Assembly (NCBI RefSeq): GCF_902826655.1
Contig: NZ_CADEFR010000028.1
Location: forward strand, 1 to 42,081
Source of the DNA: an uncultured Methylibium sp.
GTDB taxonomy: Bacteria > Pseudomonadota > Gammaproteobacteria > Burkholderiales > Burkholderiaceae_C
Direction of reading: 5' to 3'
Length of the DNA stretch: 42,081 nt
The notes under the pieces are model-generated. The model saw nothing but the letters and a program-made list of their open reading frames with translations. It was not told the DNA's origin and did not search any database. The translations under genes and the position numbers were made by a program. Of this stretch, positions 6,344 to 27,257 are shown one piece after another. The first letter of the stretch is position 1, and each line of letters begins with the position of its first letter.

Positions 6344-8040
6344 GGCTTGACCACCGGCAGCGCCGGCCGACGGCCCAGCACCGCGCCCTGCGACAGCGGC
6401 TGCACCAGCTGGCCGTAGAGGTGCAGCCAGCCGTAGCGGCCGGTCGGTACCGGCGGCGTGAAGCCCTCAAGCCGCCGCGCGATCTCGCCGGCGGCGACTT
6501 CCAGTTCGATGCGGCGCGCCGTCAGGTCGATCGTGATCATGTCGTCGTCGCGCACCGCGGCCAGCGGGCCGCCCTCGGCCGCCTCGGGCATGACCTGGCC
6601 GATGGTGATGCCGCTGTTCAGGCCCGAGAGTTCGCCGTCGGTGACGACCGCGACCTCGCTGCCCAGGCCGGCGCCGACCAGGGCCGCCATGAAGCTGGCC
6701 GCGAACACCGTGCCCGGGCCGCCCTTGGGTCCCAGCATGCGCAGCACGATGACCTGGCCGGGGCGCACGGCGCCGGTCTTCAGGCCTTCGATCGCGATGG
6801 CTTCGTCCTCGAAGACCTTGGCCGCGCCGCGGAAGCGCCGGATCGCCGCCGGCACCGCCGCCAGCTTGACCAGCGCGCCGTCGGGCGCCAGCGAGCCGCG
6901 GATGATCATCAGGCCCGGCTCGGCCGCGAAGGGCTCGGCGAGCGGGCGGATGTAGCGCGCGTCGGGCTCCGGCGTCTCGTCGACCCAGGCGCCGAGCGGC
7001 CGGCCGGTGACCGTCTGCACGTCCAGGTCCAGCACCGCGGCCAGGCGGCGCTGCACGCCGCGCACGCCGCCGGCGGCCTCGAAGGTCTCGATGCGGTCGG
7101 GTCCGTTCGGGCGGATGCGGGTCAGCATCGGTACCAGATCGGCGGCGCGCTCGAACTCGGCGATCACGTCGACCGGGCACTCGGCCTCGATCGCGATCGC
7201 GATCAGGTGGCGCATCACGTTGACCGAGCAGCCGGTCGCGACCGCGAAGCGCACCGCGTTGCGGAAGGCCGCGGGCGTGAGGATGGCGCGCGGGCGCAGG
7301 TCCTCGGCCACCATCGCGACGATGCGCGCGCCGGCCTGGTCGGCCAGCGCGTGCAGGCGCGGCCCGTCGGCGCGGATCGGCGCGTTGCCCGGCAGCGCCA
7401 TGCCCAGCGCCTCGGCCAGGCAGTGCATCGAGTTGGCGGTGGCGAGGCCCGCGCAGACGCCGGGCCCGTCGATCGCGACGCGGCACATGTCCTGCAGTTC
7501 ACCCAGCGCCATCTGCCCGGCCTTGACGCTGCCGACCGACTTGTAGACCTCCTCGATGTCGACGTGGTGCTCGCCGCACTGGCGGCCGAGCTGGTAGCCG
7601 CAGGCCAGCACCAGGCTGGGCACGTCCAGGCGGCCGGCGGCCATCAGGTGGGCCGGCGTGGTCTTGTCGCAGCTCGACAGCAGCAGCATGCCGTCGAGCT
7701 CGGCGCCCTCGACCTGGACCTCGATGTCGTTGACGATCAGGTCGCGCGTCGGCATCAGGTAGCGGCCCTGGCGGCCGGCGCTGGTCACGAAGTCCGACGG
7801 CGCGGCGGTGCGGATCTCCAGCGGCAGGCCGCCGGCCGCGCGGATCGCCGAGGCGACGCGCTTCGCGATGCCGTCGAGGTGCTGGAAGCACACCGACAGG
7901 CCGCTCGAGGTGTTGACGACCGCGATCTTGGGCTTGTCGAAGTCGGCCTCGGCGATGCCCATCGCGGTCCATTGCGCGTGGCGCACCGCCCAGCGCGTGG
8001 AGCCGGGTTCGAAGTTGCTTCTCAGGGGTTTGCGGGACAT
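6340..8040 (-). CDS. IlvD/Edd-family dehydratase (dihydroxy-acid or sugar-acid dehydratase type)
   Basis: 566 residues. The family dehydrates 2,3-dihydroxy acids to 2-oxo acids with an Fe-S cluster and Mg. The three expected cysteine ligands can be seen: NTSSGLSVCFQHLDG (near residue 50), LLLSSCDKTTPAH (near 120) and GPGVCAGLATANSMHC (near 192). Downstream lie GPKGGPGTVFAASFMAALVG and VAVVTDGELSGLNSGITIGQ, matching the Mg and substrate region of the family. The divergent N-terminus (SNFEPGSTRWAVRHAQWTAMG) and the catabolic operon point to a sugar-acid or branched hydroxy-acid dehydratase rather than biosynthetic IlvD. It lies 15 bp downstream of the FAD oxidoreductase gene. Confidence 0.88.
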   Translation of the reverse strand: MSRKPLRSNFEPGSTRWAVRHAQWTAMGIAEADFDKPKIAVVNTSSGLSVCFQHLDGIAKRVASAIRAAGGLPLEIRTAAPSDFVTSAGRQGRYLMPTRDLIVNDIEVQVEGAELDGMLLLSSCDKTTPAHLMAAGRLDVPSLVLACGYQLGRQCGEHHVDIEEVYKSVGSVKAGQMALGELQDMCRVAIDGPGVCAGLATANSMHCLAEALGMALPGNAPIRADGPRLHALADQAGARIVAMVAEDLRPRAILTPAAFRNAVRFAVATGCSVNVMRHLIAIAIEAECPVDVIAEFERAADLVPMLTRIRPNGPDRIETFEAAGGVRGVQRRLAAVLDLDVQTVTGRPLGAWVDETPEPDARYIRPLAEPFAAEPGLMIIRGSLAPDGALVKLAAVPAAIRRFRGAAKVFEDEAIAIEGLKTGAVRPGQVIVLRMLGPKGGPGTVFAASFMAALVGAGLGSEVAVVTDGELSGLNSGITIGQVMPEAAEGGPLAAVRDDDMITIDLTARRIELEVAAGEIARRLEGFTPPVPTGRYGWLHLYGQLVQPLSQGAVLGRRPALPVVKP

Positions 8041-8055
8041 GGCATTCGAGTCGGT

Positions 8056-9378
8056 TCAGTCGTCGAGCCGCGCGCCCTGGCGATTGAGCGCCTCGCGGAT
8101 CGTGCGGCCGGGGATGTCGCGCGGCGCGACGCGCTCGCGCGCGGCCAGCGTCGCGGCGACGCCGAGCGCCTGGCCGTAGGAGAAGCACTGCGCGGTGACG
8201 CGCGCCGAGGCCACCGCCTCGTGCTCGGCCGACAGGCAGCGGCCGCCGAACAGCAGGCCTTCGCCGCGCGCCGGCACGAAGCAGCCCCAGGGCACCTCGT
8301 ACCAGTCGTTCAGCAGCCACTCGACGCGCGGCCTGGCGCCGGCGTGCAGCTCGATCGGCCAGGGCGAGCGCGCCACGCCGTCGGCGAACTTGCTGCCGGC
8401 CACGACGTCGGCATTGCGCAGCATCGCGACGCCCTTGCCCTGGCGCGTCTGGCGCACGCCGACCTGCACCGCGGTGTCGTTGATCCAGCTGGCTTCGCAG
8501 CCGGCGAGCCGGTCCTTGAAGAAGCGGGCGTACTCGCGGGCCTGGCGGCGGCCCTCGACCTCGGCCTCGGTGAAGTCGGCGGCGATCACGGTGTTGAGCT
8601 CGCGGCCGTCGGCGCCGCGCACGCGCGTGCAGTTGCACAGCAGCTCGCCGGGGCGCGTGGTCTCGAACAGCCAGATCTTCTGGCGCGGCAGTGCGTAGCC
8701 GGCCTCGGCCGCCTCGGCGATCAGCGCGCTGACCTGCGGCGGCATGATGGTGTCGCTGCCGTAGGCGGCCTTGAAGCGCGCGGTGTCCACGCCCTGCAGG
8801 CGGAAGATCATCGTCGGGTTCTGCACCGTGCCGTCGGCGCCGCACCAGGTCTCGAGGCCGGCCATCGCCACGAGGTCGGCGTCGCCGCTGGCGTCGATCG
8901 TCAGGCCGGCGCGCACGTCGAGCAGGCCGCCCTTGGTCCAGACCGTCGCGCCGCCGATCGCGTCGCCGTCGCGGTGCACGCCGATCGCCAGCGCGTGGTA
9001 CGCGAGCTGCACGCCGGCGTCGACCAGCAGCGCGTCGGCCGACTCGCGCCAGGCCAGCGGTTCATGCACGCGCGTCCAGGTCTTGCCGTAGAGCACCGGC
9101 GCGGCGAGGCCGCCGCGCTGCTCCATCGCGGCGATGAAGTCGTCGACGAAGCCGTGCACCAGCTGCTTCGGCCGGGTCGGCGACGCCTCGGCTTCGTACA
9201 GGCCGCAGATCGTGCCGGACAGGCCGGCCACCGCGCCGCCGCCGCAGAAGCCGTAGCGTTCGACGAGCAGCGTCTTCAGGCCGGCGCGCGCCGCGGTGGT
9301 GGCGGCCGCGACGCCGGTCGCGCCGCCGCCGACGACGAGCAGGTCCACGTCGACGCGGCGGGAGGGTCGGGCATCCAT
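8056..9378 (-). CDS. FAD-dependent oxidoreductase (FAD_oxidored family)
   Basis: 440 residues. An N-terminal Rossmann dinucleotide fold is seen as DLLVVGGGATGVAAATTAAR with the Glu ending the second strand in LLVERYGFCGGG (residues 11-48). The central DASGDADLVAMAG and the C-terminal FGGRCLSAEHEAVASARVTA are typical of PF12831-type flavoproteins, which occur mostly in catabolic clusters and often act on hydroxy acids. No Fe-S motif or partner subunit is visible. It lies 13 bp after the TRAP permease gene and 15 bp before the dehydratase, so it belongs to the same transcript. A likely role is oxidation of the imported hydroxy acid or of an intermediate. Confidence 0.85.
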   Translation of the reverse strand: MDARPSRRVDVDLLVVGGGATGVAAATTAARAGLKTLLVERYGFCGGGAVAGLSGTICGLYEAEASPTRPKQLVHGFVDDFIAAMEQRGGLAAPVLYGKTWTRVHEPLAWRESADALLVDAGVQLAYHALAIGVHRDGDAIGGATVWTKGGLLDVRAGLTIDASGDADLVAMAGLETWCGADGTVQNPTMIFRLQGVDTARFKAAYGSDTIMPPQVSALIAEAAEAGYALPRQKIWLFETTRPGELLCNCTRVRGADGRELNTVIAADFTEAEVEGRRQAREYARFFKDRLAGCEASWINDTAVQVGVRQTRQGKGVAMLRNADVVAGSKFADGVARSPWPIELHAGARPRVEWLLNDWYEVPWGCFVPARGEGLLFGGRCLSAEHEAVASARVTAQCFSYGQALGVAATLAARERVAPRDIPGRTIREALNRQGARLDD

Positions 9379-9391
9379 CGCAGGGCCTCCG

Positions 9392-10714
9392 TCAGCGCAG
9401 CTGCATCGCGACGCCGGGCAGCCAGGTCACGAGCTGCGGCCACATCAGCGTGCAGGCCAGCGTGATGACCTGCAGCACGATGAAGGGGATCATGCCCCAG
9501 TACATGTGGCGCATCGTGATCTCGGGCGGGGCGACGGCGCGCAGGTAGAAGATCGCCGGCGCCATCGGCGGCGTCAGGTAGCTGGTCTGGATCATGATCA
9601 GGAACAGGATGCAGAACCAGACCGGGTCGAAGCCGGCGGCCTTGACCAGCGGCGTGAAGATCGGCAGGAAGATCAGCACGATCGAGATCCAGTCCAGGAA
9701 GAAGCCGGCCAGGAACAGGATGAACAGCATCATCCCCAGCAGCGCCCAGGGCGACAGGTCCAGGTGGGTGATGATCGAGCTGGCGAGGTTGATGCCGCCG
9801 CCGCCGATGAACACCCCGGTGAACAGCGTGCCGCCGAGCAGCACGAACATGATCATCGCGGTGACGCGCAGCGTCTTCAGCAGCGACTCGTACAGGCCGG
9901 CCCAGGTGAAGCGGCCGTAGAGCGCGGTCAGCCCCACCGAGCACACGGCGCCCAGCGCGGCCGCCTCGGTCGGCGAGGCCAGCCCGGCGAGGATGGAGCC
10001 CAGCACCGCGACGATCATGCCCATCGGCGGCAGCAGGTTGCGCGTCGTGATGCCGAGCTTCTGCACGAACGTCGGATCGCCCGGCTCGGGCGGGATGCGC
10101 GGGCCCATCTCGGGCTTGAAGAGGCACAGGAAGAAGATGTAGACGAGGTAGAGCCCGGCCATCAGGAAGCCCGGCAGCACCATGCCGTACATCAGGTCGC
10201 CGACCGACAGGTTGGCCAGCGGGCCCATCACCACCACCACGACCGAGGGCGGGATGATGGTGCCCAGCGAGCCGCCGGCGCAGATCGTGCCGCTGATCAG
10301 GCTCTTGTTGTAGCCGTAGCGCAGCATGATCGGGATCGTCAGCAGGCCGACCACCGACTCGGTGGCGCCGATCACGCCGCTGGAGGCCGCGAAGACGATG
10401 CACATCAGCACCGTCGCCAGCGCCAGGCCGCCGGGCAGGCGGCGCGTCCAGATGTGGATGGCCTCGAACAGCCGGTCGGCGATGCCGGACTTCTCGAGCA
10501 TCGCGCCCATGAAGACGAACAGCGGCACCGCGGCGAAGACGAAGTTCGACGACAGGTCGTCGATCTTCTCGATGAACTGGTGGATGACGTTGGGACCGAA
10601 GATGACCAGGCCGAAGGCGGCCGCGGTCAGCATCATCGCGAACGCGACCTGCACGCCGAGGAACATCAGCCCGAAGGCCAGCGGCAGCATGAAGAAGGGC
10701 AGGTACTCGGTCAT
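9392..10714 (-). CDS. dctM: TRAP transporter large permease (DctM type)
   Basis: 440 residues, very hydrophobic, with the 11-13 membrane helices of DctM proteins. Diagnostic stretches are FAAVPLFVFMGAMLEKSGIA (residues 67-86), AASSGVIGATESVVGLLTIP, and GTICAGGSLGTIIPPSVVVV. The start at 10714 is chosen because its ATG overlaps the DctQ stop (ATGA) and MTEYLPFFMLPLAFGLMFLG is the usual first helix; earlier in-frame codons fall inside dctQ. It carries the sodium-driven translocation pathway for the solute delivered by the DctP protein encoded two genes upstream. Confidence 0.93.
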   Translation of the reverse strand: MTEYLPFFMLPLAFGLMFLGVQVAFAMMLTAAAFGLVIFGPNVIHQFIEKIDDLSSNFVFAAVPLFVFMGAMLEKSGIADRLFEAIHIWTRRLPGGLALATVLMCIVFAASSGVIGATESVVGLLTIPIMLRYGYNKSLISGTICAGGSLGTIIPPSVVVVVMGPLANLSVGDLMYGMVLPGFLMAGLYLVYIFFLCLFKPEMGPRIPPEPGDPTFVQKLGITTRNLLPPMGMIVAVLGSILAGLASPTEAAALGAVCSVGLTALYGRFTWAGLYESLLKTLRVTAMIMFVLLGGTLFTGVFIGGGGINLASSIITHLDLSPWALLGMMLFILFLAGFFLDWISIVLIFLPIFTPLVKAAGFDPVWFCILFLIMIQTSYLTPPMAPAIFYLRAVAPPEITMRHMYWGMIPFIVLQVITLACTLMWPQLVTWLPGVAMQLR

Positions 10715-11223
10715 GACGGCTGCGACGGGTGGTCGTTGGTCGCGCTGCGCAGCGACTTGAGCAGCTCGCACAGCACCTGCAGCGCGAACATCGCGAAGGC
10801 GATCACGAAGACCGCGCGGAAGGGCCACACCGGCAGGTTCAGGGCCGACTGGCCCGAGGTCTCGCCGCGCGTGTAGCCGGACAGGAAGTAGTTGAAGAGC
10901 GCGACGCTCAGCCACACCAGCAGCGGCAGCACCAGCGCGTAGGCCACGGCGTCGATGCGGCGGCGCGTGCGCGGCGCCAGGTGCATGCTGAGCACGTCGA
11001 TGCGGATGTGCTCGCCCTGCCGCAGCGTGTAGGCCAGGCCCAGCAGGAAGTGCGAGCCGGTCAGCAGGTAGCCGACCTCGTAGGCCCAGATGGTGGGCGC
11101 GCCGAACGCATAGCGCGCGACGACCTCCCAGGTGGTGGCGAGCACGAGCGGCACCAGCAGCAGCGCGGCGATCACGCCGACCGCACCCACCGCACGCTCG
11201 GCCCAGGCGATGAGGCGATCCAC
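10711..11223 (-). CDS. dctQ: TRAP transporter small permease (DctQ type)
   Basis: 170 residues, four predicted membrane helices (around residues 10-30, 45-65, 90-110, 130-150) and the family motif TTWEVVARYAFGAPTIWAYE. The start is placed at GTG 11223, with GGAG 6 nt upstream and a typical DctQ length. An upstream in-frame ATG at 11334 would add a Pro/Arg-rich tail overlapping the dctP coding end and is unlikely. It overlaps dctM by 4 nt and lies 67 bp downstream of dctP. Confidence 0.88.
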   Translation of the reverse strand: MDRLIAWAERAVGAVGVIAALLLVPLVLATTWEVVARYAFGAPTIWAYEVGYLLTGSHFLLGLAYTLRQGEHIRIDVLSMHLAPRTRRRIDAVAYALVLPLLVWLSVALFNYFLSGYTRGETSGQSALNLPVWPFRAVFVIAFAMFALQVLCELLKSLRSATNDHPSQPS

Positions 11224-11290
11224 TCGCGTCTCCGGCTCAGGGGTTCGGGATCGGCCCGCCGCGTCGGCGGCGGGCCGGGGGAGGGACGGG

Positions 11291-12361
11291 TCAGGCCTGC
11301 TTGACCTTGACCTTGCGCCAGTGGTCGGCGTCACGCCAGGCCGCGTCGAAGTCGACCTGGCTCTTGTGCACCTTGGCGAACCACTTGTACTTGCCGTCCT
11401 TGGCCGTCTTCTCGGCCCAGTCGAGGCCGATCTTGCGGGCCGCGAACTGCACCTCGTCGTCGAGCTCGACCATCTGCACGCCCTGCTTCTTGAAGAAGTC
11501 GAAGGCCTTGACGTCCTCGGCGCCGATGCGCGTCCAGGTCTCCATCGTCACCAGCTTGGCGACCAGCTCGACCAGCTGCCGGTCGGCCGGCGGCATCTTG
11601 TTCCAGACGTCCTTGTTGATGACCAGCTCGAAGGGCGCGGTCGGCTGGTGCACGCCCGGGTAGCTCAGGTACTTGGCGACCTTGTAGAAGCCCGGCGAGA
11701 TGTTCTCCCACAGCGTGCCCCACTCGGTGGCGTCGATCGCGCCGCGCTCGAGCATCGGGAACACGTCCCCGGCAGCGGTGGTCACCGGCGCGGCGCCGAG
11801 GTCCTTGGACATCTCCAGCCAGGCGCCGGCGGTGCGCAGCTTCAGGCCCTTCAGGTCGGCCAGCGACTTGACCGGCTTGCGCGAGTGCAGGAAGACCTCG
11901 GCGGTGCGGATGAACAGCGGCATCGAGATGACGCCGTCGGCCTCGTCGCGGAACTGGCGCTGCAGGTCGACGCCGCCGCTCTCGTACAGCCAGTGCAGCA
12001 TGCGCTCGGTGTCGAAGGTGCCGGCGTAGCCGCCGAACAGCACGGTCGTCGGGTCCTTGCCCCAGTCGTAGCCCATCCAGGTGTGGCCGCACTCGGCGAG
12101 GCCGTTCTTCACCGTCTCGGGCACCTTCAGCGCGTTGCCGAGCCCGCCCCCCGGGAAGGGCTGGATCTTGAAGCGCCCGCCCGAGAAGAAGGCCATGCGC
12201 TCGCAGAAGGCCTTGGCGCCGACGTCCATGACGGGACCGCCGGCCCAGCCGGTGGCCATCTTCCAGTTGTAGGTCGGTCCGCCGGCCTGGGCGGCCGCGC
12301 CGGCGGCGGCCATGAGGCCCGCGCTGCCGATCGCGGCGTTCACGAAGTTGCGACGCTTCAT
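11291..12361 (-). CDS. dctP: TRAP transporter solute-binding protein (DctP type, 2-oxo/hydroxy-acid-like)
   Basis: 356 residues with an N-terminal Tat-like signal (MKRRNFVNAAIGSAGLMAAA, AAAQA cleavage region). The mature protein starts YNWKMATGWAGGPVMDVG. The motifs GHTWMGYDWGKDPTTVLFGG and ATEWGTLWENISPGFYKVAK, with a carboxylate-binding Arg region at KLRTAGAWLEM, resemble the subgroup of TakP and lactate/2-oxoacid binders rather than C4-dicarboxylate DctP. AGGAG lies 8 nt before the ATG. A monocarboxylic 2-oxo or 2-hydroxy acid is therefore the best guess for the imported substrate, which suits the lyases and dehydratase downstream. Confidence 0.9.
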   Translation of the reverse strand: MKRRNFVNAAIGSAGLMAAAGAAAQAGGPTYNWKMATGWAGGPVMDVGAKAFCERMAFFSGGRFKIQPFPGGGLGNALKVPETVKNGLAECGHTWMGYDWGKDPTTVLFGGYAGTFDTERMLHWLYESGGVDLQRQFRDEADGVISMPLFIRTAEVFLHSRKPVKSLADLKGLKLRTAGAWLEMSKDLGAAPVTTAAGDVFPMLERGAIDATEWGTLWENISPGFYKVAKYLSYPGVHQPTAPFELVINKDVWNKMPPADRQLVELVAKLVTMETWTRIGAEDVKAFDFFKKQGVQMVELDDEVQFAARKIGLDWAEKTAKDGKYKWFAKVHKSQVDFDAAWRDADHWRKVKVKQA

Positions 12362-13383: not shown

Positions 13384-14115
13384 ATGAAAGCTGCGCCGAA
13401 GAAGATCGCCGCCCGACGCACGCCGCGGGCCGCTGCGGCCCCCGCGCCGGTCGCGCGCCCGCCCGCGGCCCGCCCGAAGAGCCTGACCTCGCAGGCCTAC
13501 GAGCGCATCGAGGAGCTGATCGTCACGCTGGAGCTGCCGCCCGGCACGGCGCTGTCCGAAGCCGAGCTGTCGGCGCGCCTGGCGATCGGCCGCACGCCGG
13601 TGCGCGAGGCGCTGCAGCGCCTGGCCCGCGAGCACCTCGTGGCGATCCTGCCGCAGCGCGGCGTGCTGGTGTCCGAGATCGACATCAAGCGCCAGCTGCG
13701 CCTGCTGGAGACGCGCCGCGAGGTCGAGCGCCTGGTGGTGCGCTGCGCCGCGCGGCGCTGCAGCGAGGCCGAGCGTTCGCGCTTCGAGGCGCTGGCGAAG
13801 GAGTTCGAGGCCGCCGGCCGCGCCGACGACGAGACGCGCTTCATGCGCGCCGACAAGGAGTTCAACGACCTGTCGCTGGTGGCGTCGCGCAACGAGTTCG
13901 CGGCCGGCGCGATGGGCCTGATGCACGGCCTGTCGCGGCGCTTCTGGTTCCTGCACTACCGCCAGGCCGCCGACACGCCGACGATGGCGCGGCTGCACGG
14001 CGACATCGCGCGCGCGATCGCGCAGCGCGACGAGGCCGGGGCCACGAAGGCCCTGGACACGCTGATCGACCACAACGAGGCCTTCACGCGGGCCACCGTC
14101 AGCACCGACTTCTGA
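13384..14115 (+). CDS. GntR-family transcriptional regulator (FadR/FCD type)
   Basis: 243 residues. A basic Ala/Pro/Arg-rich N-terminal extension (residues 1-32) precedes a winged HTH (SLTSQAYERIEELIVTLELP; LSARLAIGRTPVREALQRLA) and an all-helical FCD ligand domain (residues 105-230) with likely metal ligands in ADKEFNDLSLVA and MARLHGDIARAI. Such regulators usually repress an adjacent organic-acid catabolic operon until a small carboxylate binds. It is divergent from the operon starting at 13236, its obvious target. GGAG lies 10 nt before the ATG, and a TATCGT -10-like box occurs at 13346-13351. Confidence 0.92.
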   Translation: MKAAPKKIAARRTPRAAAAPAPVARPPAARPKSLTSQAYERIEELIVTLELPPGTALSEAELSARLAIGRTPVREALQRLAREHLVAILPQRGVLVSEIDIKRQLRLLETRREVERLVVRCAARRCSEAERSRFEALAKEFEAAGRADDETRFMRADKEFNDLSLVASRNEFAAGAMGLMHGLSRRFWFLHYRQAADTPTMARLHGDIARAIAQRDEAGATKALDTLIDHNEAFTRATVSTDF

Positions 14116-14116
14116 G

Positions 14117-15091
14117 TCAGCGCCCGCGCGCCAGCGCCATGTTGGCCGCGGCGGTGCGCGTCTCCACGCCGAGTTTCTCGAACACGTGCTCGAGGTGCTT
14201 GGTCACGGTCTTGGGGCTGGTGCCGAGGATCTCGCCGATGTCGCGGTTGGTCTTGCCCTGCGTCACCCAGTGCAGCACCTCGGCCTCGCGGGCGGTCAGC
14301 CGGAAGGCCAGCGCCAGCGACTCGATCGTGCCGCGGTCGTCGCTCTCGGTCAGCACCAGCAGCCACTCGTCGTCGCCGGTCGACTCGTGCAGCGCGAAGC
14401 TGGCGCGCCGGCCGTCGCGTGCCAGCAGCAGCGGCTGGCCGCCCGGGCGCGCCTGGCGGCCGGTCGCGGCCAGCACGGCCTGGGCCTGCAGCCAGTCGGC
14501 CACCGGCGCGGCCAGTTGCTGGCCGTTGCCGCCGCCGCCGACCTGCACCGCGTGCAGCGCGACCAGCAGCTCGCGCGCCAGCGGCGTGGCCCAGACGATG
14601 CGCGCGTCGCGGGCCCGCACGGTGATGACCGCGTGGCCGAAGGCGTCGAGCGCGTTGCGGGCCTGGCGCTGCAGGCGTGCGCCGCGCAGGTGGGTCTCGA
14701 TGCGCGCGATCACCTCGCGCGGCCGGATCGGCTTGGTCACGTAGTCGACGCCGCCGGCGGCGAACGCCGCCACGACATGCTCGGTCTCCGACAGGCCGGT
14801 CATGAAGACCACCGGCACCTGCGCGGTGACGGCGTCGGCCTTCAGCCGGCGCGCGACCTCGAAGCCGTCGAGCCCCGGCATCACCGCGTCCAGCAGCACC
14901 AGGTCGGGCTGGGTGCGGGCACAGCGCTCGAGGGCGCCTTCGCCGGAGGTGGCGACCAGCACGGTGTAGCCCGACTCGTCGAGCGCGTCGTGCAGCATCG
15001 CCAGGTTGTCGGGCTGGTCGTCGACGATGAGGATCACGCCGGCCCCGCCGGCGCCGGCCTCACGCGGCGCGGGGCTGGCGGGCGCCGTCAT
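14117..15091 (-). CDS. LuxR-type response regulator
   Basis: 324 residues. Residues 18-135 form a receiver domain (VILIVDDQPDNLAMLHDALD; phosphoacceptor Asp in LVLLDAVMPGLDGFE near residue 71; Lys in DYVTKPIRPREV). Residues 165-240 form a PAS-like segment. Residues 255-318 form a LuxR/NarL HTH (LTAREAEVLHWVTQGKTNRD; ILGTSPKTVTKHLEHVFEKL). It overlaps the 3' end of the permease-kinase gene by 32 bp, so the pair is co-translated. Its targets are likely the divergent urease genes. Confidence 0.93.
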   Translation of the reverse strand: MTAPASPAPREAGAGGAGVILIVDDQPDNLAMLHDALDESGYTVLVATSGEGALERCARTQPDLVLLDAVMPGLDGFEVARRLKADAVTAQVPVVFMTGLSETEHVVAAFAAGGVDYVTKPIRPREVIARIETHLRGARLQRQARNALDAFGHAVITVRARDARIVWATPLARELLVALHAVQVGGGGNGQQLAAPVADWLQAQAVLAATGRQARPGGQPLLLARDGRRASFALHESTGDDEWLLVLTESDDRGTIESLALAFRLTAREAEVLHWVTQGKTNRDIGEILGTSPKTVTKHLEHVFEKLGVETRTAAANMALARGR

Positions 15092-18000
15092 CGTCGTCGG
15101 GTCGGGTCGCGGCGAGCGCCTGCTCGACGCGCGCCGTCAGCGCGTCGAGGCGGAAGTCGCGCGCCAGCGTGCGCAGGCCGTCCACGAAGGCGGCACAGCG
15201 CGGGTCGGCCGCCGCCATGCGATCGAGCTCGGCGTGGATGCCTCGCACATAGCCCAGGTGCAGCGGGCCTGACAAGGCCTGCAGGGCGGCGGCGTCGGGC
15301 AGATGGAGCGACGCCGCCGACGCGGCCGCGGCCGGCTCGGCCGGCACCGCGGGCTGCGCTTCGAGCCATTGCAGTCCCAGCCGCGCGCCCAGCCAGTCGA
15401 GCAGGTCGTCCAGCCGCACCGGCTTGACGATGAAGTCGGCCGGGCCGATGCCGACGTCGTTGTCGAGCGCCTTGTCGAAGGCATTGGCCGAGACGATGGC
15501 CGTCGGGGCGCCGGGCGCCAGGCCCTCGGCGCGGCGCCGGCGCAGCGTTTCCCAGCCGTCGATGCCGGGCATCGCCAGGTCCATCAGCACGGCGTCGGGC
15601 GCGGGGCCGCCCTGCAGCAGCGCCAGCGCCTCCTCGCCCGACGCCGCGAGCACGAGCTCGAAGCCCAGCGGCTGCAGCAGGTGGGCCAGCAGGTCGCGGT
15701 CGACCTCCTCGTTGTCGACCACCAGCACGCGCCGGCGCGGCCCGAGGTAGCCGCTGCGGGCGTGGCGCGCCGCGGCGCGCGGCACGACGGCGCCGGTCAG
15801 CTCGGGCAGGAAGAGCCGGATCGCGAAGCGGCTGCCGACGCCGGGCGTGCTGGTGGCCGTCATCTCGCCGCCCATCAGCTCGGTCAGCATGCGCGCGATG
15901 GTCAGGCCCAGGCCCGAGCCGGCGACGCTGCTGGCGCCGGCCGCCGCGCCGCGCTGGAAGGGCTCGAAGACGCGCGCCAGTTCGTCGGCGTTCATGCCCG
16001 GGCCCGAGTCCTCGATCTCGAAGCGCGCCGTCTCGCGCAGGTGGCTGACGCGGAACACGACGCGCCCGCGCGCGGTGAACTTGACCGCGTTGCCCAGCAG
16101 GTTGATGAGGATCTGGCGCAGGCGCTGCTCGTCGGCGCGCACCACCTCGGGCAGCGAGGCCGCGAAGTCGGTGTCGAAGGCGATGCCCTTGGCCGAGGCC
16201 TGCAGCTGCATCAGGCCGGCGATCTCGTGCAGGCCGTCGGCAAAGCGCATCGGGCGGGGCTCGAGCGCCAGCTTGCCGGCCTCGATGCGCGCCAGGTCCA
16301 GCGTGCCTTCGATCAGGCCCAGCAGGTGGTCGCCGCCGCGGCGGATCACGCGCACCGCCTGCGCCCGCTGCGGCGGCATCGCCTCGTCTTCCTCCAGCAG
16401 CTGCGCGTAGCCGAGGATGCTGTTGAGCGGCGTGCGCAGCTCGTGGCTGATCGCGGTGATGTAGCGGCTCTTGGCCTGGTTGGCGCGGTCGGCGACCTGC
16501 CGCGCCTGCTGCAGCTGCGCGTCGGTGCGGCGGTGCGACTCGATCTCGCGCATCAGCAGCTGGGTCTGGCGGTTGGACTCCTCCTGCGCGACCTGGCGGC
16601 TCTTGTGCGCCAGCACCAGCCACCAGCACACGACGCCGGCCACCAGCAGCATCACCGCGAAGGCCTTGCCGAAGCCGTGGCGCTCGAGCATCAGCGTGAT
16701 CGCGGTCAGCAGTGGCAGCACCACCAGCATCAGCAGCAGGTAGTGCGCGAGGCCGGTGTCCAGATAGGGCCAGGCGCGCCGCGGCAGCAGCCAGCGCAGC
16801 GCGCTGCCCCACTGCGTGGCCAGGCGCGCCGGCTCGGGCTTGCACAGGTCGCCGCAGCGCGCGTCGAGCGTGCAGCACAGCGAGCAGATCGGCCCGCCGT
16901 AGGCCGGGCAGCCGGCCATGTCCTCGCCCTCGTAGTCGCGCTCGCAGATGCAGCAGCGCTGCAGGCGCGTGGTGGTGCCGGACTCCGAGGCGGGGGCGGG
17001 CGCCGGCGTGTCGCTGCGCGCCAGGTAGTAGCGGCCCTTCGTCCACCAGGCCAGCAGCGGCGAGGCGACGAAGGCCGTGACGAGCGCGATCGCCGCCGAG
17101 AAGGCCTGCGCCGCCGCGCCGAACGCGCCCAGGTGCGCAGCGACCGACAGCGCCGAGGCGATGCCCATCGCGCCGACGCCGACCGGGTTGACGTCGTAGA
17201 GGTAGGCGCGCCGGTACTCGACGCCCGCCGGCGACAGCCCCAGCGGCTTGTTGACCACCAGGTCGGCCACGACCGCCATCATCCAGGCGATCGCGATGTT
17301 GGAGTACAGGCCCAGCACTTCGCCCATCGCGGCGAAGACGTTCAACTCCATCAGCAGCAGCGCGATCATCGTGTTGAAGACGACCCAGACCACGCGCCCC
17401 GGGTGGCTGTGCGTGACGCGCGAGAAGAAGTTGGACCACGCCAGCGACCCGGCGTAGGCATTGGTGACGTTGATCTTGAGCTGCGAGATCACGACGAACA
17501 GCGCCGTCACCGCGACCGCGGTGCCGTAGTGCGAGAACACCATCTCGTAGGCCGCCAGGTACATCTGGTTGGGGTCGACGGCGCGCTCGGCCGGCACGCT
17601 GAGCGTGATCGCCAGGTAGGCCAGCAGCGCGCCGCCCAGCATCTTGAGCACGCCCGGCAGCACCCAGCCCGGTCCGCCGATCAGCACCGCGGTCCACCAG
17701 CGGCGCCGGTTGGCCGTGGTGCGCTCGGGCATGAAGCGCAGGTAGTCGGCCTGCTCGCCCATCTGCGTGATCAGCGCGATGCCGACCGTGGTGGCCGCGC
17801 CGAAAGCAAGCCAGCCGAAGCCGGGGTGGCCGCCGGTCTCGCCGGCGTAGGCCGTCAGGCCGCCGATCAGCCCCGGGTTGGCGTGCAGCACCGCGACGTA
17901 GGGCGCCACCAGCAGGGCGGCCCACAGCGGCAGCGTCCAGGCCTGCAGCCGGCCGATCGCGGTGACGCCGTGCGTCACCAGCGGGATCACGACCAGCGCG

Positions 18001-18512
18001 CACACCAGGTAGCCCCAGGCCGGCGGGATGTCGAACACCAGCTCCAGCGCGTAGGCCATCACCGCGGCCTCGAGCGCGAAGAAGATGAAGGTGAAGCTCG
18101 CGTAGATCAGCGAGGTGATGGTCGACCCGATGTAGCCGAAGCCCGCGCCGCGCGTCAGCAGGTCCATGTCGACGCCGTGGCGCGCCGCGTAGACGCTGAT
18201 CGGCAGCCCGGCCAGGAAGATCACCAGCCCGGTCGCCAGGATCGCCAGCGCCGCGTTGACGAAGCCGTAGCGCAGCAGCAGCGTGGCGCCGATGGCCTCG
18301 AGGATCAGGAAGGAGGCCGCGCCGCCGAGCGCGGTGTTGGCCACCCGCAGCGGCGACCACTTGCGAAAGCTGCGCGCGGTGAAACGCAGTGCGTAGTCCT
18401 CCATCGACTCGCGCGCGACCCAGGAGTTGTAGTCGCGGCGCACCTTGACGACGCGCTGGGGGGCGTCGTCCAGGCGGGCGGGCGGAGGCGGATCGAGGGC
18501 GGCGGGATCCAT
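15060..18512 (-). CDS. NCS1 permease-hybrid histidine kinase fusion (transporter-sensor kinase)
   Basis: 1150 residues. Residues about 40-490 are a complete nucleobase:cation symporter-1-type permease of about 12 helices ([78 protein letters not shown]). A cytosolic Cys-rich module follows at about 514-555, with ten cysteines in CxxC and CC pairs. Next come two more helices (570-640), a coiled coil, HisKA with phospho-His near residue 690 ([20 protein letters not shown]), HATPase_c ([27 protein letters not shown]) and a receiver near 925-1040 with Asp in [14 protein letters not shown]. The last about 100 residues are helical without a clear HPt histidine. The start at 18512 begins the conserved region; 66 bp separate it from divergent ureA. 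By analogy with CbrA-type transporter-kinases it probably senses a transported nitrogenous solute. Confidence 0.9.
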
Positions 18513-18578: not shown

Positions 18579-18881
18579 ATGGACCTGACCCCGCGCGAGA
18601 AGGACAAGCTGCTGCTCTTCACCGCCTCGCTGTTGGCCGAACGGCGCAAGGCGCGCGGCCTGAAGCTCAACCACCCCGAGGCGGTGGCGCTGATCTCGGC
18701 CGCGATCCTGGAAGGTGCGCGCGACGGCAAGAGCGTCGCCGCGCTGATGAGCGAAGGCCGCCAGGTGCTGGCGCGTGCCGACGTGATGGAGGGCGTGGCC
18801 GAGATGATTCCCGAGATCCAGGTCGAGGCCACGTTCCCGGACGGCACCAAACTGGTTACCGTGCACCAACCGATTGCATGA
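18579..18881 (+). CDS. ureA: Urease gamma subunit
   Basis: 100 residues, the normal length. The sequence is typical from end to end: [40 protein letters not shown], and the conserved [20 protein letters not shown] near the C-terminus. UreA is the small structural subunit of the (UreABC)3 apoenzyme that hydrolyses urea to ammonia and carbamate in the cytoplasm. It is the first gene of the urease locus and is followed after 10 bp by a small membrane-protein gene instead of ureB. Confidence 0.97.
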
Positions 18882-19081: not shown

Positions 19082-19393
19082 ATGCTGATCCCCGGCGAAC
19101 TGATCCCGGCCGACGCGCCCGACCACGCGCTGATGCCCGGCCGGCGCGCGCTGACGCTGGTGGTCGAGAACCGCGGCGACCGGCCGATCCAGGTCGGCTC
19201 GCACTACCACTTTGCCGAGACCAATCCGGCGCTGGCCTTCGACCGGACCGCCGCGCGCGGCATGCGTCTGGCCATCGCCTCGGGCACCGCGGTGCGCTTC
19301 GAGCCCGGCCAGCAGCGCACGGTGACGCTGGTGGACTACGCCGGGGCGCGCGCGGTCTGGGGCTTCCGCGGCGAGGTGCAGGGCACTTTGTAA
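19082..19393 (+). CDS. ureB: Urease beta subunit
   Basis: 103 residues, normal length. Typical stretches are [40 protein letters not shown], and the family signature continuing [20 protein letters not shown]. The C-terminus [20 protein letters not shown] is typical. It forms the structural part of urease with UreA and UreC. ureC does not follow directly: an ATP-grasp gene is inserted with a 32-bp gap that holds a hairpin or promoter-like palindrome. Confidence 0.97.
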
Positions 19394-19425: not shown

Positions 19426-20601
19426 ATGACCTCGATCCTGGTGGTGGATGTCGGCTGGGCGCAGGTGTTCCGGCTGGCCAGCGACCTGGCGGCGGCGGGC
19501 CTGCGGGTCTTCGTCGTCGGGGGCGACACCGGCAAGGCCTGGCTGCTGCCCGCCGGCGTGACGGCGCTGCCCGGGCGCATCGATCCGCTGGACGCGCCCG
19601 GGATGATCGCGACGATCGGCCAGGCCCGCGAGCGTTGCGGCGCCGACTGGGTGCTGGCGCTGGCCGAGCCGGTGCTGGCGGCCTGCTGGCGCTACCTGCC
19701 CGGCTGGATCGACCGCCTGCTGCCGGCGGTGGCGGCCGCACACCGGCCGCTGTTCGGCCACAAGCAGCGCATGCTCGAGTACGTCGCGGCTCACGGCGTG
19801 CCGGTGCCGCGCGGGGTCTGGCTCGTGCGCGGCGACGACGCCGAGATCGAGGCGGCCGGCGGGCAGCTGGGCTGGCCGCTGGTCGTCAAGGTCCCGAACG
19901 GCTATGCCGGGCACGGCGTGGTGATCGCGTCGCGCCTGCCCGAGGCCACGCAGGCCGTGCGCTCGCTGTGGAGCGACGACCCGGCGCGCCGGCCGACCTT
20001 GCAGGCCTGGCTGCCGGGCGCCACCCGGCTGGTCGGCGGCCTGTTCGAGAACGGTCGGGCGGTGCACCTGATCGGCGCCGAGCGGACCGCCTGCGGCGGC
20101 CCGCCGACCGGTCCGGCGCTGCGCTTGCGGACCGAGGCGCAGCCCCGGCTGCTGGACGCCGGGCGGCGCTGCTTCGAGGCCCTGGCCTACACCGGGATCG
20201 CCTGCGCCGACTTCGTCGACGACGCCGACGGCTGCCCGCGGCTCGTCGACGTGAACCCGCGGCCCTGGGGATCGATCGGCGTGGCCCGCAGCGCCGGCGT
20301 CGACCTGATCGGCGCCTGGGCGCGGCGCTTGCAAGGTGACGACGTCGCGCTGCCGCCCGAGGCGCGACCGGGCATCGACTGGGTGAAGATCCCCGACTAC
20401 CTGTGGCCCGAGACGACCAGCGGCCTCGACTTCCTGTCGCGGCTGTTCGAACCCGTGGTGTGGCGCTCCTGGTCGCGCCACCGCGCCGCCGACTTCCTGA
20501 TCGAGATCAAGCTGGCCCAGTACCTGTTGCGCCAACGACTGCGGGAACCCCGGGCCGATCGTGGCCGCGCCGCCGCCGGCCCGCCGCCCCCGCCCTGCTG
20601 A
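19426..20601 (+). CDS. ATP-grasp domain protein inserted between ureB and ureC
   Basis: 391 residues. Residues 1-110 form a Rossmann-like pre-ATP-grasp domain ([20 protein letters not shown]). The ATP-grasp fold follows: [20 protein letters not shown] near residue 150 with the ATP-binding Lys and Gly-rich loop, and the Mg/ATP-binding [20 protein letters not shown] near 275. Such enzymes form amide, peptide or thioester bonds through an acyl-phosphate. The closest general type is the carbamoyl-phosphate-synthase-like, D-Ala-D-Ala-ligase-like stand-alone ATP-grasp. It lies 13 bp before ureC, so ureC depends on the same transcript. Substrate unknown. A role linked to urea or carbamate is tempting but only guessed from position. 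Confidence 0.85.
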
Positions 20602-20614
20602 TGGAGAACCTTCG

Positions 20615-22339
20615 ATGAGCCTCTCGCGCCGCGCCTACGCGGAGATGTACGGCCCCACCGTCGGCGACCGCGTGCGCCTGGCCGACACCGAACTGGTCGT
20701 CGAGGTCGAGCGCGACTTCACCTTGCTGGCCGGCGGCTACGGCGAGGAGGTCAAGTTCGGTGGCGGCAAGACCATCCGCGACGGCATGGGCCAGAGCCAG
20801 CGCATCAACGGCATCGGCCCCGGCGACGCGATGGACTGCGTGATCACCAATGCGCTGATCGTCGACCACTGGGGCATCGTCAAGGCCGACATCGGCCTGC
20901 GCGGCCAGCGCATCGCCGCGATCGGCAAGGCCGGCAATCCCGATGTGCAGCCGGGCGTGGACATCGTCATCGGGCCGGGCACCGAGGTCATCGCGGGCGA
21001 AGGCATGATCGTCACGGCTGGCGGCATCGACAGCCACATCCACTTCATCTGCCCGCAGCAGATCGAGGAGTCGCTGGCGAGCGGCGTGACGACGATGCTG
21101 GGCGGCGGCACCGGCCCGGCGACCGGGACCTTCGCCACCACCTGCACGCCGGGGCCCGAGAACCTGGCGCGCATGCTGATGGCGGCCGAGGCCTTCCCGA
21201 TGAACCTGGGCTTCCTCGGCAAGGGCAATGCGAGCCGGCCCGAGGGCTTGAGCCAGCAGGTCGAGGCCGGCGCGATCGGCCTGAAGCTGCACGAGGACTG
21301 GGGCACCACGCCCTCGGCCATCGACCAGTGCCTGGCCGTCGCGGACGAGACCGACACCCAGGTCTCGATCCACAGCGACACGCTCAACGAGAGCGGCTTC
21401 GTCGAGGACACCATCGCGGCGACGAAGGGCCGCACGCTGTGCGCCTTCCACACCGAGGGCGCGGGCGGCGGGCACGCGCCCGACATCCTGCGCGTGGTCG
21501 GCGAGGCCAACTTCCTGCCCAGCTCGACCAACCCGACGATGCCCTTCACGGTGAACACCGTCGACGAGCACCTCGACATGCTGATGGTCTGCCACCACCT
21601 CGACGCCAGCATCGCCGAGGACCTGGCCTTCGCCGAGAGCCGCATCCGCAAGGAGACCATCGCCGCCGAGGACGTGCTGCACGACCTGGGCGCCATCAGC
21701 ATGATGAGCAGCGACAGCCAGGCCATGGGCCGCGTCGGCGAGGTCATCCTGCGCACCTGGCAGACGGCGCACAAGATGAAGGTGCAGCGCGGCGCGCTCG
21801 ATGGCGATTCCGCGCGCAATGACAACACGCGGGTCAAGCGCTACGTCGCCAAGTACACGATCAACCCGGCCCTCGCCAACGGCATCGCCCACGAGGTCGG
21901 GAGCATCGAGGTCGGCAAGTGGGCCGACCTGGTGCTGTGGCGGCCGGCCTTCTTCGGCGTCAAGCCCAGCCTCGTCATCAAGGGCGGCTTCATCGCCAGC
22001 GCGCTGATGGGCGACGCCAACGCCAGCATCCCGACGCCGCAGCCGGTGCACGTGCGGCCGATGTTCGGCGCCTACGGCGGCGCGCTGGGGCGCGGCTCGC
22101 TCACCTTCCTCAGCCAGGCCGGCGTGGCCGCGGGGGTGGGTGAACGCCTGGGGCTGCGCAAGACCGTCTCGGCCGTGCGCGGATGCCGCACGGTGAAGAA
22201 GACCGACATGGTCCACAACGCCTGGCTGCCGGCGATGCAGATCGACGCCCAGACCTACGAGGTGCGCGCCGACGGTCAGCTGCTGAGCTGCGAGGCGGCC
22301 GCCGTGCTGCCGATGGCGCAGCGCTACTTCCTGTTCTGA
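20615..22339 (+). CDS. ureC: Urease alpha subunit (catalytic)
   Basis: 574 residues, full length. All active-site elements can be read: HIHFICPQQ (two Ni-ligand His), [11 protein letters not shown] (the Lys that is carbamylated to bridge the two nickels), [12 protein letters not shown] (Ni-ligand His), [13 protein letters not shown] (Ni-ligand His and mobile region), MVCHHLD (flap Cys-His) and [10 protein letters not shown] (Ni-ligand Asp). The start ATG follows GGAGAACC at a proper distance, 13 bp after the ATP-grasp stop. The gene ends 15 bp from the convergent parA-like gene, so the structural urease transcript must terminate here and the accessory genes need their own promoter. Confidence 0.98.
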
Positions 22340-22354
22340 GGCGCTGACGGACCC

Positions 22355-23263
22355 TCAGGCGCGACGTGCTTGCCGCATCGGCCAGACCCGCAGCCACTCG
22401 GCGACGCGCTGGGCGACGCCGCGGCGCGGTGCGGCCTGCAGGATGCCGAGCGGCACCTGGCCCGTGGCGCCCGGTGCAGGCCGGTGCGGCGCGGTGTGCG
22501 CGACCGGCGCGCTGCTGCGCTCGGTGGACACCGTGGTCAGCGACGCCGGGCGTCGCTCGGCCGTCACGGCGCAGGGCCGGGTCGGCTTCAAGGCAGGGGT
22601 TTCGGCGGCGGCCGGCAGCGGGCGCAGCACCGGATCGAGCCAGTCGAGGATGGGTTGCCACTGCGCGCGGTCGATCGAGGTCTGCGAGGCCGGCAGGTCG
22701 AAGATCGTGAGGCCGTGCTCGACGCAGCGCACATAGGTCTGGGTCTCGCGCAGCGCGCCGACGTAGGGCAGGTCGATCTCCGCCGCCCAGCGCGCCAGCA
22801 CCTCGCCGGCCTTGGTGCGCCCGTCCAGGCGCATGCCGATCGCCGCCACCTTGCAGCGGCCGTTGGCCACCCGCGGCAGCGTCTTCAGCTCGGCATAGCA
22901 CTCGGCCGCGGCTTCGCGGTCGAACATCGACTGGCACACCGGGATCAGCACCGCGTCGGCGTACGAGACGACCTTGGCCAGCTCGAAGCCGTGCGTGCCG
23001 CCGGGCGTGTCGAGCACGACGTGGGTCACGCCGACCGGCGGACGCAGGGAGTTCTTCGGGTCGATCGCCCAGCCGACGATCGGCTTCGAGCCGGGCAGGG
23101 TCTGCGCGGCGCGGGCGCGCAGCCAGGCCTGGGTCGATTGCTGCCGGTCGGTGTCGCCCAGCATCGCGCGCAGCCCGGCGCTGGCGCAATGGCCGGCGAG
23201 GTGGGTGGCCAGCGTGCTCTTGCCGCTGCCGCCCTTGCGGTTGATGACTGCGATGACGGGCAT
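22355..23263 (-). CDS. ParA/MinD-family ATPase on the opposite strand inside the urease locus
   Basis: 302 residues. It has the deviant Walker A AVINRKGGSGKSTLATHLAG (residues 5-24) with the signature Lys, the switch I region GDTDRQQSTQAWLRAR, and Walker B THVVLDTPGG (near 80). About 200 residues of ATPase domain are followed by an Ala/Pro/Thr-rich linker and a basic amphipathic C-terminus (GVAQRVAEWLRVWPMRQARR). No parB-like gene or parS-like repeat is nearby and the setting is chromosomal, so plasmid partition is unlikely. Stand-alone ParA proteins can position protein assemblies on the nucleoid or membrane. It is convergent with ureC and divergent from ureE. Confidence 0.88.
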   Translation of the reverse strand: MPVIAVINRKGGSGKSTLATHLAGHCASAGLRAMLGDTDRQQSTQAWLRARAAQTLPGSKPIVGWAIDPKNSLRPPVGVTHVVLDTPGGTHGFELAKVVSYADAVLIPVCQSMFDREAAAECYAELKTLPRVANGRCKVAAIGMRLDGRTKAGEVLARWAAEIDLPYVGALRETQTYVRCVEHGLTIFDLPASQTSIDRAQWQPILDWLDPVLRPLPAAAETPALKPTRPCAVTAERRPASLTTVSTERSSAPVAHTAPHRPAPGATGQVPLGILQAAPRRGVAQRVAEWLRVWPMRQARRA

Positions 23264-23352: not shown

Positions 23353-23370
23353 CGTGAGCCAATGCTCACG
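23353..23370. promoter_or_regulatory. Perfect 7-bp palindrome in the parA-like/ureE divergent promoter region
   Basis: CGTGAGC (23353-23359) and GCTCACG (23364-23370) flank CAAT. It lies in the 164-bp gap between parA-like and ureE. It is too far from either 3' end to be a terminator, so it is best seen as an operator candidate for one or both genes. Confidence 0.4.
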
Positions 23371-23427
23371 CCGGCCGTGCGGTATCTGGCGTCTGTGGCG
23401 GATAAGCGGCGCGCGCACAATCCGGCC

Positions 23428-24042
23428 ATGCTGACCCTGACCAAGTTGATCCCCGCCGGCCGCGGCCTGGCGCCGGTGCTCGTGAAGCGTGCCGCGACCG
23501 TCGAACTCGACTGGGATGTGCGGCAGAAAAGCCGCTTCGAGGCCACCGATTCGCAAGGGCGCAGCCTCGGCGTCGTGCTGCCGCGCGGCAGCGCGGTGCG
23601 CGGCGGCGACGTGCTGGTGGCCGAGGACGGCTCGCTGGTGCGCGTGATCGCCGCTGCCCAGCCGGTGCTGCGCGTCACCGTCTGCGCCGAGCACGGCGCG
23701 CCCTTCGACCTGCTGCGCGCGGCCTACCACCTGGGCAACCGCCACGTGCCGCTGGAGCTGCAGCCGGACGCGCTGCAGTTCGAACCCGACCACGTGCTGG
23801 CCGACATGCTGCGTGCGATGCACCTGATCGTCACCGAAGCGCAGGCGCCGTTCGAGCCCGAGGGCGGGGCGTATGCGGCGGGCGGCCACGGGCATCAGCA
23901 TGAGCACGCGCAGGGTCATGCACACGACCATGAGCACGCGCGTGCACCGGCCGCACCGGCACGCGGCCGCCCGATCGGCATCGCGGTGAAGCCGGCGGCC
24001 ACGCCCCACGTGCACGGTCCGGGCTGCGGGCACGACCACTGA
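23428..24042 (+). CDS. ureE: Urease accessory protein UreE with His-rich nickel-binding tail
   Basis: 204 residues. Residues 1-75 form the peptide-binding domain ([20 protein letters not shown]). Residues 80-150 form the metallochaperone domain with the conserved interface His in [11 protein letters not shown] long His-rich tail follows ([18 protein letters not shown] and a final [11 protein letters not shown]), which can store several nickel ions and makes the protein longer than tail-less homologues. UreE delivers nickel to UreG. The ATG is chosen because upstream in-frame sequence is non-conserved; CACAAT six nt upstream could be a leaderless -10 box. It is the first gene of the second urease unit. 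Confidence 0.96.
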
Positions 24043-24056: not shown

Positions 24057-24749
24057 ATGTCCGAGCCGACCCTCGCCGCCGGCCCGCTGCTGCAGCTGAT
24101 GTGGCTCGCGTCGCCGGCCTTGCCGGTGGGCGGCTTCAGCTACTCCGAGGGGCTGGAAGCCGCGGTCGATTCGGGCCGTGCACGCAGCGAGGCCGAGGTG
24201 GCGCGCTGGCTGGTCGACCAGCTGGACCTCACGCTCGCCCGCAGCGAGCTGGCCGTCGCGGCCCGCGCCTTCGACGCCTGGCAGCGCAGCGACCTCGCGG
24301 CCGTGCGCGCGCTCGACGACTGGGTGCGCAGCACCCGCGAGACGCGCGAACTGCGCCTGCAGACCGAGCAGATGGGCCGCTCGCTCGTCGCGTGGCTGAA
24401 GAACCGCGGCGGCACCCCGGACCCGCGCGTCGCCGACGCGGCGGCGCTGTCGCCGACCTGGCCGGTGGCCTTTGCGCTGGCCGCGGTGCTGGCGGGCGCG
24501 CCGCGGCGTGAGTCGCTGCTGTCGCTGGCCTTCGGCTGGGCCGAGAACCTGGTGCAGGCCGCGATCAAGGCCGTGCCGCTGGGGCAGAGCGCCGGCCAGC
24601 GCATCCTGGCCGCGCTCGTCGAGGCGATCCCGCCGGCCGTCGACCGCGCACTGGCGCTGGCCGATGGCGACCGCCAGGCCTTCTCGCCGATGCTGGCGAT
24701 CCTGTCGGCGCAGCACGAGACGCAGTACTCGCGCCTGTTCAGGTCCTGA
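24057..24749 (+). CDS. ureF: Urease accessory protein UreF
   Basis: 230 residues, all-helical. Typical stretches: [20 protein letters not shown] near the N-terminus, [20 protein letters not shown], and [20 protein letters not shown] near the C-terminus. UreF bridges UreD and UreG in the activation complex and controls the UreG GTPase. It starts 14 bp after ureE, so the two are co-transcribed. It is followed by a 110-bp gap with a strong inverted repeat, then the dioxygenase-like gene rather than ureG. Confidence 0.96.
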
Positions 24750-24762: not shown

Positions 24763-24782
24763 GCGGACACGATTGTGTCCGC
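24763..24782. terminator. 8-bp perfect inverted repeat downstream of ureF (terminator- or operator-like)
   Basis: GCGGACAC (24763-24770), loop GATT, GTGTCCGC (24775-24782), starting 14 bp after the ureF stop. No T-run follows, so intrinsic termination is uncertain. A third copy of GCGGACAC occurs at 24805-24812 in direct orientation, which fits an operator array as well. Confidence 0.4.
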
Positions 24783-24859
24783 GCAGAAACGAAGCAGAGA
24801 GATTGCGGACACCTGAGGTCGCGAGCATCGCGGGTCCCCAGCCCCAACGCGATGCCTGC

Positions 24860-27241: not shown

Positions 27242-27257
27242 GCGCACGGCGCGCGAT

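Follow-up and report, generated by a model that had tools for sequence, protein, structure and literature searches.

The window (the whole stretch of DNA analysed, 42,081 nucleotides, contig NZ_CADEFR010000028.1 of an uncultured Methylibium sp.) encodes a permease-kinase fusion that consists of an NCS1-fold permease, a cysteine-rich module (Cys module), two additional membrane helices and a hybrid histidine kinase. The fusion gene overlaps the gene of a LuxR-type response regulator, and a palindrome that we predict to be bound by this regulator lies upstream of urtA. We propose, with a probability of roughly two in three, that the fusion serves as a transceptor kinase whose ligand is urea, a short-chain amide or both, and that it controls the urea transporter genes urtABCDE here and amidase genes elsewhere. 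The parts of this system in the window are as follows.

15060 to 18512, minus strand: permease-kinase fusion, a hybrid histidine kinase of 1150 residues (frame, Pfam, AlphaFold2 model, fold search)
17025 to 18386, minus strand: NCS1-fold permease domain, residues ~43-496
16842 to 16955, minus strand: Cys module, residues 520-557, CxxC-x11-C-x7-CxxCC-x5-C-x3-C
16593 to 16781, minus strand: two extra membrane helices and the start of the signalling helix, residues ~578-640 (AlphaFold2 model)
16275 to 16475, minus strand: HisKA with phospho-acceptor His690 (Pfam, alignment)
15807 to 16133, minus strand: HATPase_c (Pfam)
15396 to 15728, minus strand: receiver domain with Asp978 (Pfam, alignment)
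14117 to 15091, minus strand: LuxR-type response regulator, REC and GerE (Pfam)
879 to 896, no strand assigned: predicted regulator binding site, ATACGGCAGATGTCGTAG, 104 bp upstream of the urtA start and the sole match in the window with at most 3 mismatches
1 to 775, minus strand: urtA, substrate-binding protein of the urea ATP-binding cassette (ABC) transporter, cut by the contig end (TIGR03407, 393 bits, profile positions 1-216; start ATG at 775)

The fusion occupies one stop-free frame of 1150 codons. Pfam assigns only its kinase half, as HisKA (residues 680-746), HATPase_c (794-902) and Response_reg (929-1039). All residue-conservation counts given here come from an alignment of 136 proteins, the window protein included, in which His690 is kept in 136 and Asp978 in 134, the other two having a gap. 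With these three domains and the conserved His and Asp, the fusion is a hybrid histidine kinase, and the single-frame architecture claimed in a previous sequence-only reading of this DNA is borne out by frame translation and Pfam. The same reading had placed a LuxR regulator across the 3' end of the kinase gene; the two genes do overlap, by 32 bp, and the Response_reg and GerE matches fit the NarL/LuxR type. Between REC and GerE, ~130 residues of the regulator (~133-264) have no Pfam match.

What is the membrane half of the fusion? A fold search with the structural model ranks CodB first and Mhp1 next. Profile-profile comparison (hhalign) with accepted NCS1 proteins gives probabilities of 95.6% (E 1.2e-8) and 96.0% (E 4e-9). 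A bridging protein (L171), 29% identical to the permease half, exceeds the PF02133 cut-off and matches TIGR00800 at 2.5e-16, under that model's own cut-off. PF02133 itself finds no match to the window protein at E<=0.1 and none in its own genome at E<=10; solved-structure sequences searched with the permease half give no match at E<=10, and with the bridging protein one chance match only. As judged from the modelled fold, profile-profile comparison and the bridging protein, the permease half is of the NCS1 type, as the sequence-only reading had supposed in making an NCS1 permease the sensor of a two-component system. The profile comparison that it had suggested thus came out for NCS1 at the profile-profile level and not as a direct match to PF02133. 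An SLC5 permease finds no support (hhalign to eight SSF proteins, 1.7%, E 0.029), and the fold of the membrane half rules out a plain 7TM/PAS sensor.

The permease half shares its fold with CodB and Mhp1, and its candidate pocket residues vary little or not at all in the alignment. Asn318 of Mhp1 aligns with the invariant Asn351 of the fusion. Other positions of Mhp1, whose functional roles we presume, are replaced: W117 aligns with Phe, Q121 with Glu and W220 with Leu, and the Na2-site pair S312/T313 with Lys346/Ile347. A further NCS1-like group (L172-L175) has an Arg close to the Na2-site position; in 3 of its 4 loci, two large adjoining genes presumably encode hydantoinase/oxoprolinase-like subunits, as seen from their starts only.

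The genes that accompany the kinase point to urea and amides. Three samples were compared: an even draw of 398 Pseudomonadota genomes, the organism's own included (the phylum sample); a scan of GTDB contigs confirmed by tblastn, of which the best 80 of 582 stretches, mostly Burkholderiales by title, were used (the contig scan); and 14 more distant loci picked from 274 genomes of the class by their Cys module (the third sample). The kinase has a match in 60 of the 398 genomes, and 57 places in 52 genomes match the larger part of the query with at least 52% identity, in open frames no shorter than 899 residues. In the genus of the window, 3 of 6 genomes carry the kinase, its own among them. Neighbourhoods were taken for 55 of the 56 other phylum-sample places, with one (G048) left out. 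They contain urt genes in 48 of 55 cases, formamidase in 37, amidase or AmiS in 19 and ureA in 11; at least one urt, ure, fmdA or amidase gene is present in 53, and the other two are cut by contig ends. The commonest arrangement is urtA-B-C-D-E-fmdA-fmdB-amiE divergent from the kinase and regulator genes. The contig scan is dominated by ureA (68/80, 61 of them divergent and within 700 bp), with urt genes at 23 of 80 loci and at least one urea/amide gene at 71; three of the remaining nine are cut by contig ends. The regulator adjoins the kinase at 79 of 80 contig-scan and 53 of 55 phylum-sample loci. A random gene would, by our rough estimate, show such linkage in one or two per cent of cases. 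Neighbours were identified with curated models through one representative each of UrtA-E, FmdA, aliphatic amidase, AmiS/UreI (found at two loci) and UreD.

These neighbours bear on the ligand. The sequence-only reading had the system sense a product of nucleobase breakdown, or a related nitrogenous solute, during its transport and turn on urease to release the ammonia. In the form weighed here, the NCS1 domain would respond to a nucleobase or to a breakdown product of the hydantoin or allantoin type, and urease would act on the urea so formed. Characterised NCS1 members do carry such rings, and the frequent ureA of the contig scan would suit this idea. However, the usual partners in the phylum sample are urtABCDE and formamidase, together with aliphatic amidase, among neighbours that were not systematically screened for purine or pyrimidine genes. 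Furthermore, Trp220 of Mhp1, which we take to be its ring-stacking residue, is Leu in all 136 aligned proteins. We therefore regard a ring-compound ligand as very improbable, the least likely of the alternatives considered. The linkage to urease that the same reading proposed to survey is real, and homologues do lie beside urea genes. Urease is attached in differing orders in separate branches of the tree (L121; L165/L168; L154/L160; L164; the Burkholderiales clade), which suggests that this linkage arose several times. Some loci have fmdA/amiE but lack urease within reach, which suggests formamide or acetamide as a further signal or as the signal in place of urea.

A shared DNA palindrome connects the kinase with urtA. 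Dyads counted in 27 non-redundant kinase-urtA gaps yielded the palindrome ATACGYCANNTGRCGTAT: ATACG-N8-CGTAT occurs in 11 of the 27 gaps, and any dyad reaches at most 2 in one shuffle of each. With at most 4 mismatches, the palindrome is found in 29 of 32 training kinase-urtA gaps (shuffled 3.6%), in 24 of 67 kinase-ureA gaps (shuffled 1.1%; the gap of the window is among the misses) and in 7 of 34 other kinase-upstream regions. Where urtA lies outside the divergent gap of the kinase, 29 of 31 upstream regions carry it with at most 3 mismatches (contig scan 23/23, phylum sample 6/8), compared with 0.9% of 1113 random stretches. Seven more loci combine kinase and urtA (L220, L221, L222, L224, L225, L227 and L244), and six of them also have the palindrome within 3 mismatches. 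In the window, the single match within 3 mismatches stands against an expectation of 0.07. At 40 urtA places, selected by hand from those listed for genomes without a kinase match in the phylum sample, no palindrome was found with up to 4 mismatches. Twenty urtA places in kinase-bearing genomes were selected by hand, and among them the palindrome precedes all four urtA genes located elsewhere in genomes of the window's family. In the genus itself, 4 of 4 urtA genes in the two other kinase genomes have it, versus 0 of 2 in kinase-free genomes. At three loci, where a kinase-less permease precedes fmdA, it lies with 1-2 mismatches between the kinase and the permease-fmdA operon; at L228 (exact) and L232 (3 mismatches) it precedes the kinase. 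Among the matches listed for genome G393, the two with at most 2 mismatches lie upstream of urtA and in the kinase-ureA gap.

Could the palindrome belong to another regulator that is co-inherited with the kinase, while the overlapping LuxR regulator acts elsewhere? The assignment follows from co-occurrence, and L225 has kinase, regulator and urtA without a palindrome. This explanation is nevertheless improbable, given that the palindrome tracks the kinase within one genus, sits between the kinase and the permease-fmdA operon or before the kinase, and is absent at up to 4 mismatches from L153 and L161, whose kinases lack this regulator.

Under the proposed mechanism, urea or an amide would bind the central NCS1 pocket, where E148, N351 and the invariant Q250/E253/Q254 cluster are candidate binding residues. 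The resulting shift of the permease would reach His690 by way of the Cys module and the two helices, and the phosphate would move to Asp978 and/or to Asp68 of the regulator (a position counted by eye). The regulator would then bind ATACGYCANNTGRCGTAT and control urtABCDE here and fmdA/amiE, sometimes ureA, elsewhere; all of this is inferred, from the ligand and its pocket to the signal path, the phosphotransfer, the identity of the motif-binding protein and the direction of control. In the window's lineage, urtABCDE is the best-supported target. The sequence-only reading had the system switch on urease directly, which the window does not show: the predicted site precedes urtA, and the kinase-ureA gap holds none (best match with 7 mismatches), nor do the gaps of two congeners, yet more than a third of such gaps elsewhere do. 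A dyad search of kinase-ureA gaps alone returned G+C-rich dyads and no clear winner. Urease may be tied to the system by the supply of urea, or in some other way.

The Cys module and the two helices occupy the linker place between permease and kinase. The module was originally described as holding ten Cys; the window protein has nine, eight of which are invariant in all 136 proteins. The second membrane block described alongside it exists and amounts to two helices in the AlphaFold2 model (578-608, and 614 onward). The module has weak fold matches, mostly to PHD/RING/FYVE/LIM fingers, and its matches among PDB sequences are for the most part short and to zinc fingers, at E>=0.022; the module is possibly a zinc cross-brace finger. 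Pfam gave no match to the module at E<=5 for the three members scanned. A search for the module in the 274 class genomes found 20 places, 17 of them in open frames of 1007-1543 residues; the other three are a 617-residue frame (the kinase-less permease), a 661-residue frame and a 43-residue fragment with stops.

The permease also occurs without this kinase. At L153 and L161, the same permease, Cys module and two helices are joined to a different kinase that lacks a receiver and still adjoins formamidase and AmiS/UreI. A REC-HisKA-HATPase protein adjoining the alternative fusion (L153:7561-8811) could form a second step in its signalling. Three genomes of a single genus in the window's class encode a kinase-less permease with the same eight Cys (559 residues in L218). 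Its gene points away from the kinase gene and has fmdA and amiE behind it, two of the three genomes also showing fmdB, and this operon sits where urtABCDE usually lies. One of these genomes has a second kinase-less permease with a Cys module, whose gene precedes that of a PF01425 amidase. A FastTree tree with distant NCS1 proteins as its root places both outside all kinases (support 97 and 99); since the second one forms a long branch, this placement is no more than suggestive.

These permeases matter for another explanation, in which the kinase responds to a metal (for example via the Cys module), to ammonia or to the nitrogen status, and the permease half is a membrane scaffold only. The eight invariant Cys and their zinc-finger-like model, the metal cofactor that urease requires and the half of the distant sample that lacks urea/amide neighbours are all consistent with this. 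However, zinc fingers are usually structural, the candidate pocket residues are conserved, and the presence of permease and Cys module without a kinase in amidase operons points to a transport role of both. We consider a pure scaffold unlikely, if less so than a foreign owner of the palindrome.

The permease half is also found on plasmids, in 524 records, 342 of them from Klebsiella; in the records listed, the protein is mostly named 'ATP-binding protein' and sometimes 'ArcB'. In the conjugative IncF plasmid p1-KP21317 of K. pneumoniae (L324), the kinase gene is accompanied by urtABCDE and an annotated formamidase gene. On pBVIE02 of Burkholderia vietnamiensis (L323), a nitrilase-family gene, fmdB, formamidase, an HAAT (amino acid/amide) transporter, the kinase and the LuxR regulator form a unit bounded on both sides by transposase genes, and pSymB of Sinorhizobium meliloti holds kinase and response regulator together with urtABCDE. 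More tentatively, with somewhat less than even confidence, we suggest a widespread class of transceptor kinases that arose when a kinase was fused to an ancestral permease for short amides, which already had a zinc module at its C-terminus. The free-standing form would survive in amidase operons and would have been fused to at least two kinase types; with the LuxR regulator, the palindrome and urt, fmd/ami or ure genes, the fusion would make up a portable unit for urea/amide utilisation.

Several observations weigh against the transceptor proposal. Its ligand, any transport and the binding by the regulator are predictions from sequence, and the palindrome is assigned to this regulator by co-occurrence only. 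Six contig-scan loci show no urea/amide gene despite DNA on both sides (L042, L045, L058, L060, L075 and L080). Urea/amide genes are present at 7 of the 14 third-sample loci and absent from the available DNA of the other seven (L223, L226, L228-L232), of which L228 and L232 have little upstream DNA available, and L230 and L231, with 8 kb covered, also lack an adjacent regulator match; the linkage is therefore not universal, strong as it is in the phylum sample and the contig scan. L225, with kinase, regulator and divergent urtA, has no palindrome at up to 4 mismatches. The palindrome is also missing at all 16 hand-selected second urtA copies in genomes of other taxa that bear the kinase; in each case, a further urt copy is linked to the kinase. 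The organism's own genome contains 5 sites within 3 mismatches versus 12 for a reversed-pattern control, and a search of 12 genomes at 3 mismatches was level with that control, so that we claim no wider regulon. Distant free-standing relatives in Actinomycetota (Arthrobacter; a Streptomyces plasmid), in which the Cys module is decayed or partial, have no amide genes among the neighbours scanned, and the wider family may thus have other cargo. At L325:7935-9611 and 6692-7789, the Arthrobacter relative lies beside biotin-synthase-like (BATS) and class-III aminotransferase genes. Beside the unlinked kinase at L231:7849-11520 is a LysR-like neighbour, and beyond it a gene (L231:12966-14348) that we take by eye to be RuBisCO large chain-like.

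The urease genes of the window lie on the strand opposite to the kinase, all on the plus strand.

18579 to 18881, plus strand: ureA (PF00547)
19082 to 19393, plus strand: ureB, start codon picked by eye (PF00699)
20561 to 22339, plus strand: ureC (PF00449, PF01979)
23362 to 24042, plus strand: ureE
24057 to 24749, plus strand: ureF
25737 to 26399, plus strand: ureG (CobW/HypB/UreG family match)
26402 to 27238, plus strand: ureD (tblastn, 35% identity with a PF01774 protein from a different locus)

The ureA start at 18579 is 66 bp from the kinase start, exactly as previously noted. After ureA come ureB, an ATP-grasp gene (19426-20601), ureC, a ParA/MipZ-like gene on the other strand (22355-23263), ureE, ureF, a dioxygenase-like gene (24773-25708), ureG and ureD. 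Downstream, an AIR-synthase-like protein (26931-28367) presumably resembles a member of the Nit1C cluster. The partial urtA, absent from the sequence-only reading, is cut by the contig start, and the urea ABC transporter of this organism therefore probably extends past the window. Between the response regulator and urtA, a minus-strand block (5495-11334) encodes a tripartite ATP-independent periplasmic (TRAP) transporter (DctQ/DctM), a flavin adenine dinucleotide-dependent (FAD) oxidoreductase, an IlvD/Edd-type dehydratase and a PEP-mutase-type protein, with a GntR/FCD regulator nearby on the other strand (13384-14115).

Genes for the uptake of urea and amides are widespread among bacteria of soil and water. 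If our proposal is correct, sensor, regulator, DNA site and target operon are given at once, which would make urea/amide sensing testable in a model such as Sinorhizobium meliloti, and the kinase-less permease would provide a natural before-and-after pair for the change from transporter to receptor. Our literature search, which covered subscription journals only in small part, found no NCS1-kinase fusion, nothing on this regulator and no similarly composed two-component system for sensing urea or amides. Clusters of urtABCDE, formamidase and amidase genes have been described (PMC3098086, PMC13209695) that combine the same transporter and enzymes as the fusion loci, and an amide has been suggested there as the cargo of such urt-like transporters; unlike at the fusion loci, the term 'histidine kinase' is absent from the main text, as far as the accessible portions of these two papers go.

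Transporter-kinase fusions are already known with SLC5 permeases (CbrA, CrbS (MxtR) and RpuS) and with an Amt domain (Ks-Amt5, PMC5764959). Like the fusion, CbrA, CrbS and RpuS join a LeuT-fold transporter to a histidine kinase through a dedicated linker, and CrbS is likewise a hybrid kinase, with a regulator that activates a gene for substrate utilisation. CbrA-type proteins differ in having an SLC5 rather than an NCS1 permease, and the fusion is distinguished by its linkage to urea/amide genes. The linker of CbrA is a four-helix STAC domain, in contrast to the Cys module and two membrane helices found here; no STAC domain appears among the Pfam matches of the fusion, in a comparison made with Pfam and without a STAC profile. 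Ks-Amt5 similarly joins a nitrogen-compound transporter domain to a kinase and has lost transport while retaining binding, but its domain is Amt and its ligand ammonium. If our proposal holds, the permease-kinase fusion described here would add NCS1 to SLC5 and Amt as transporter families joined to kinases.

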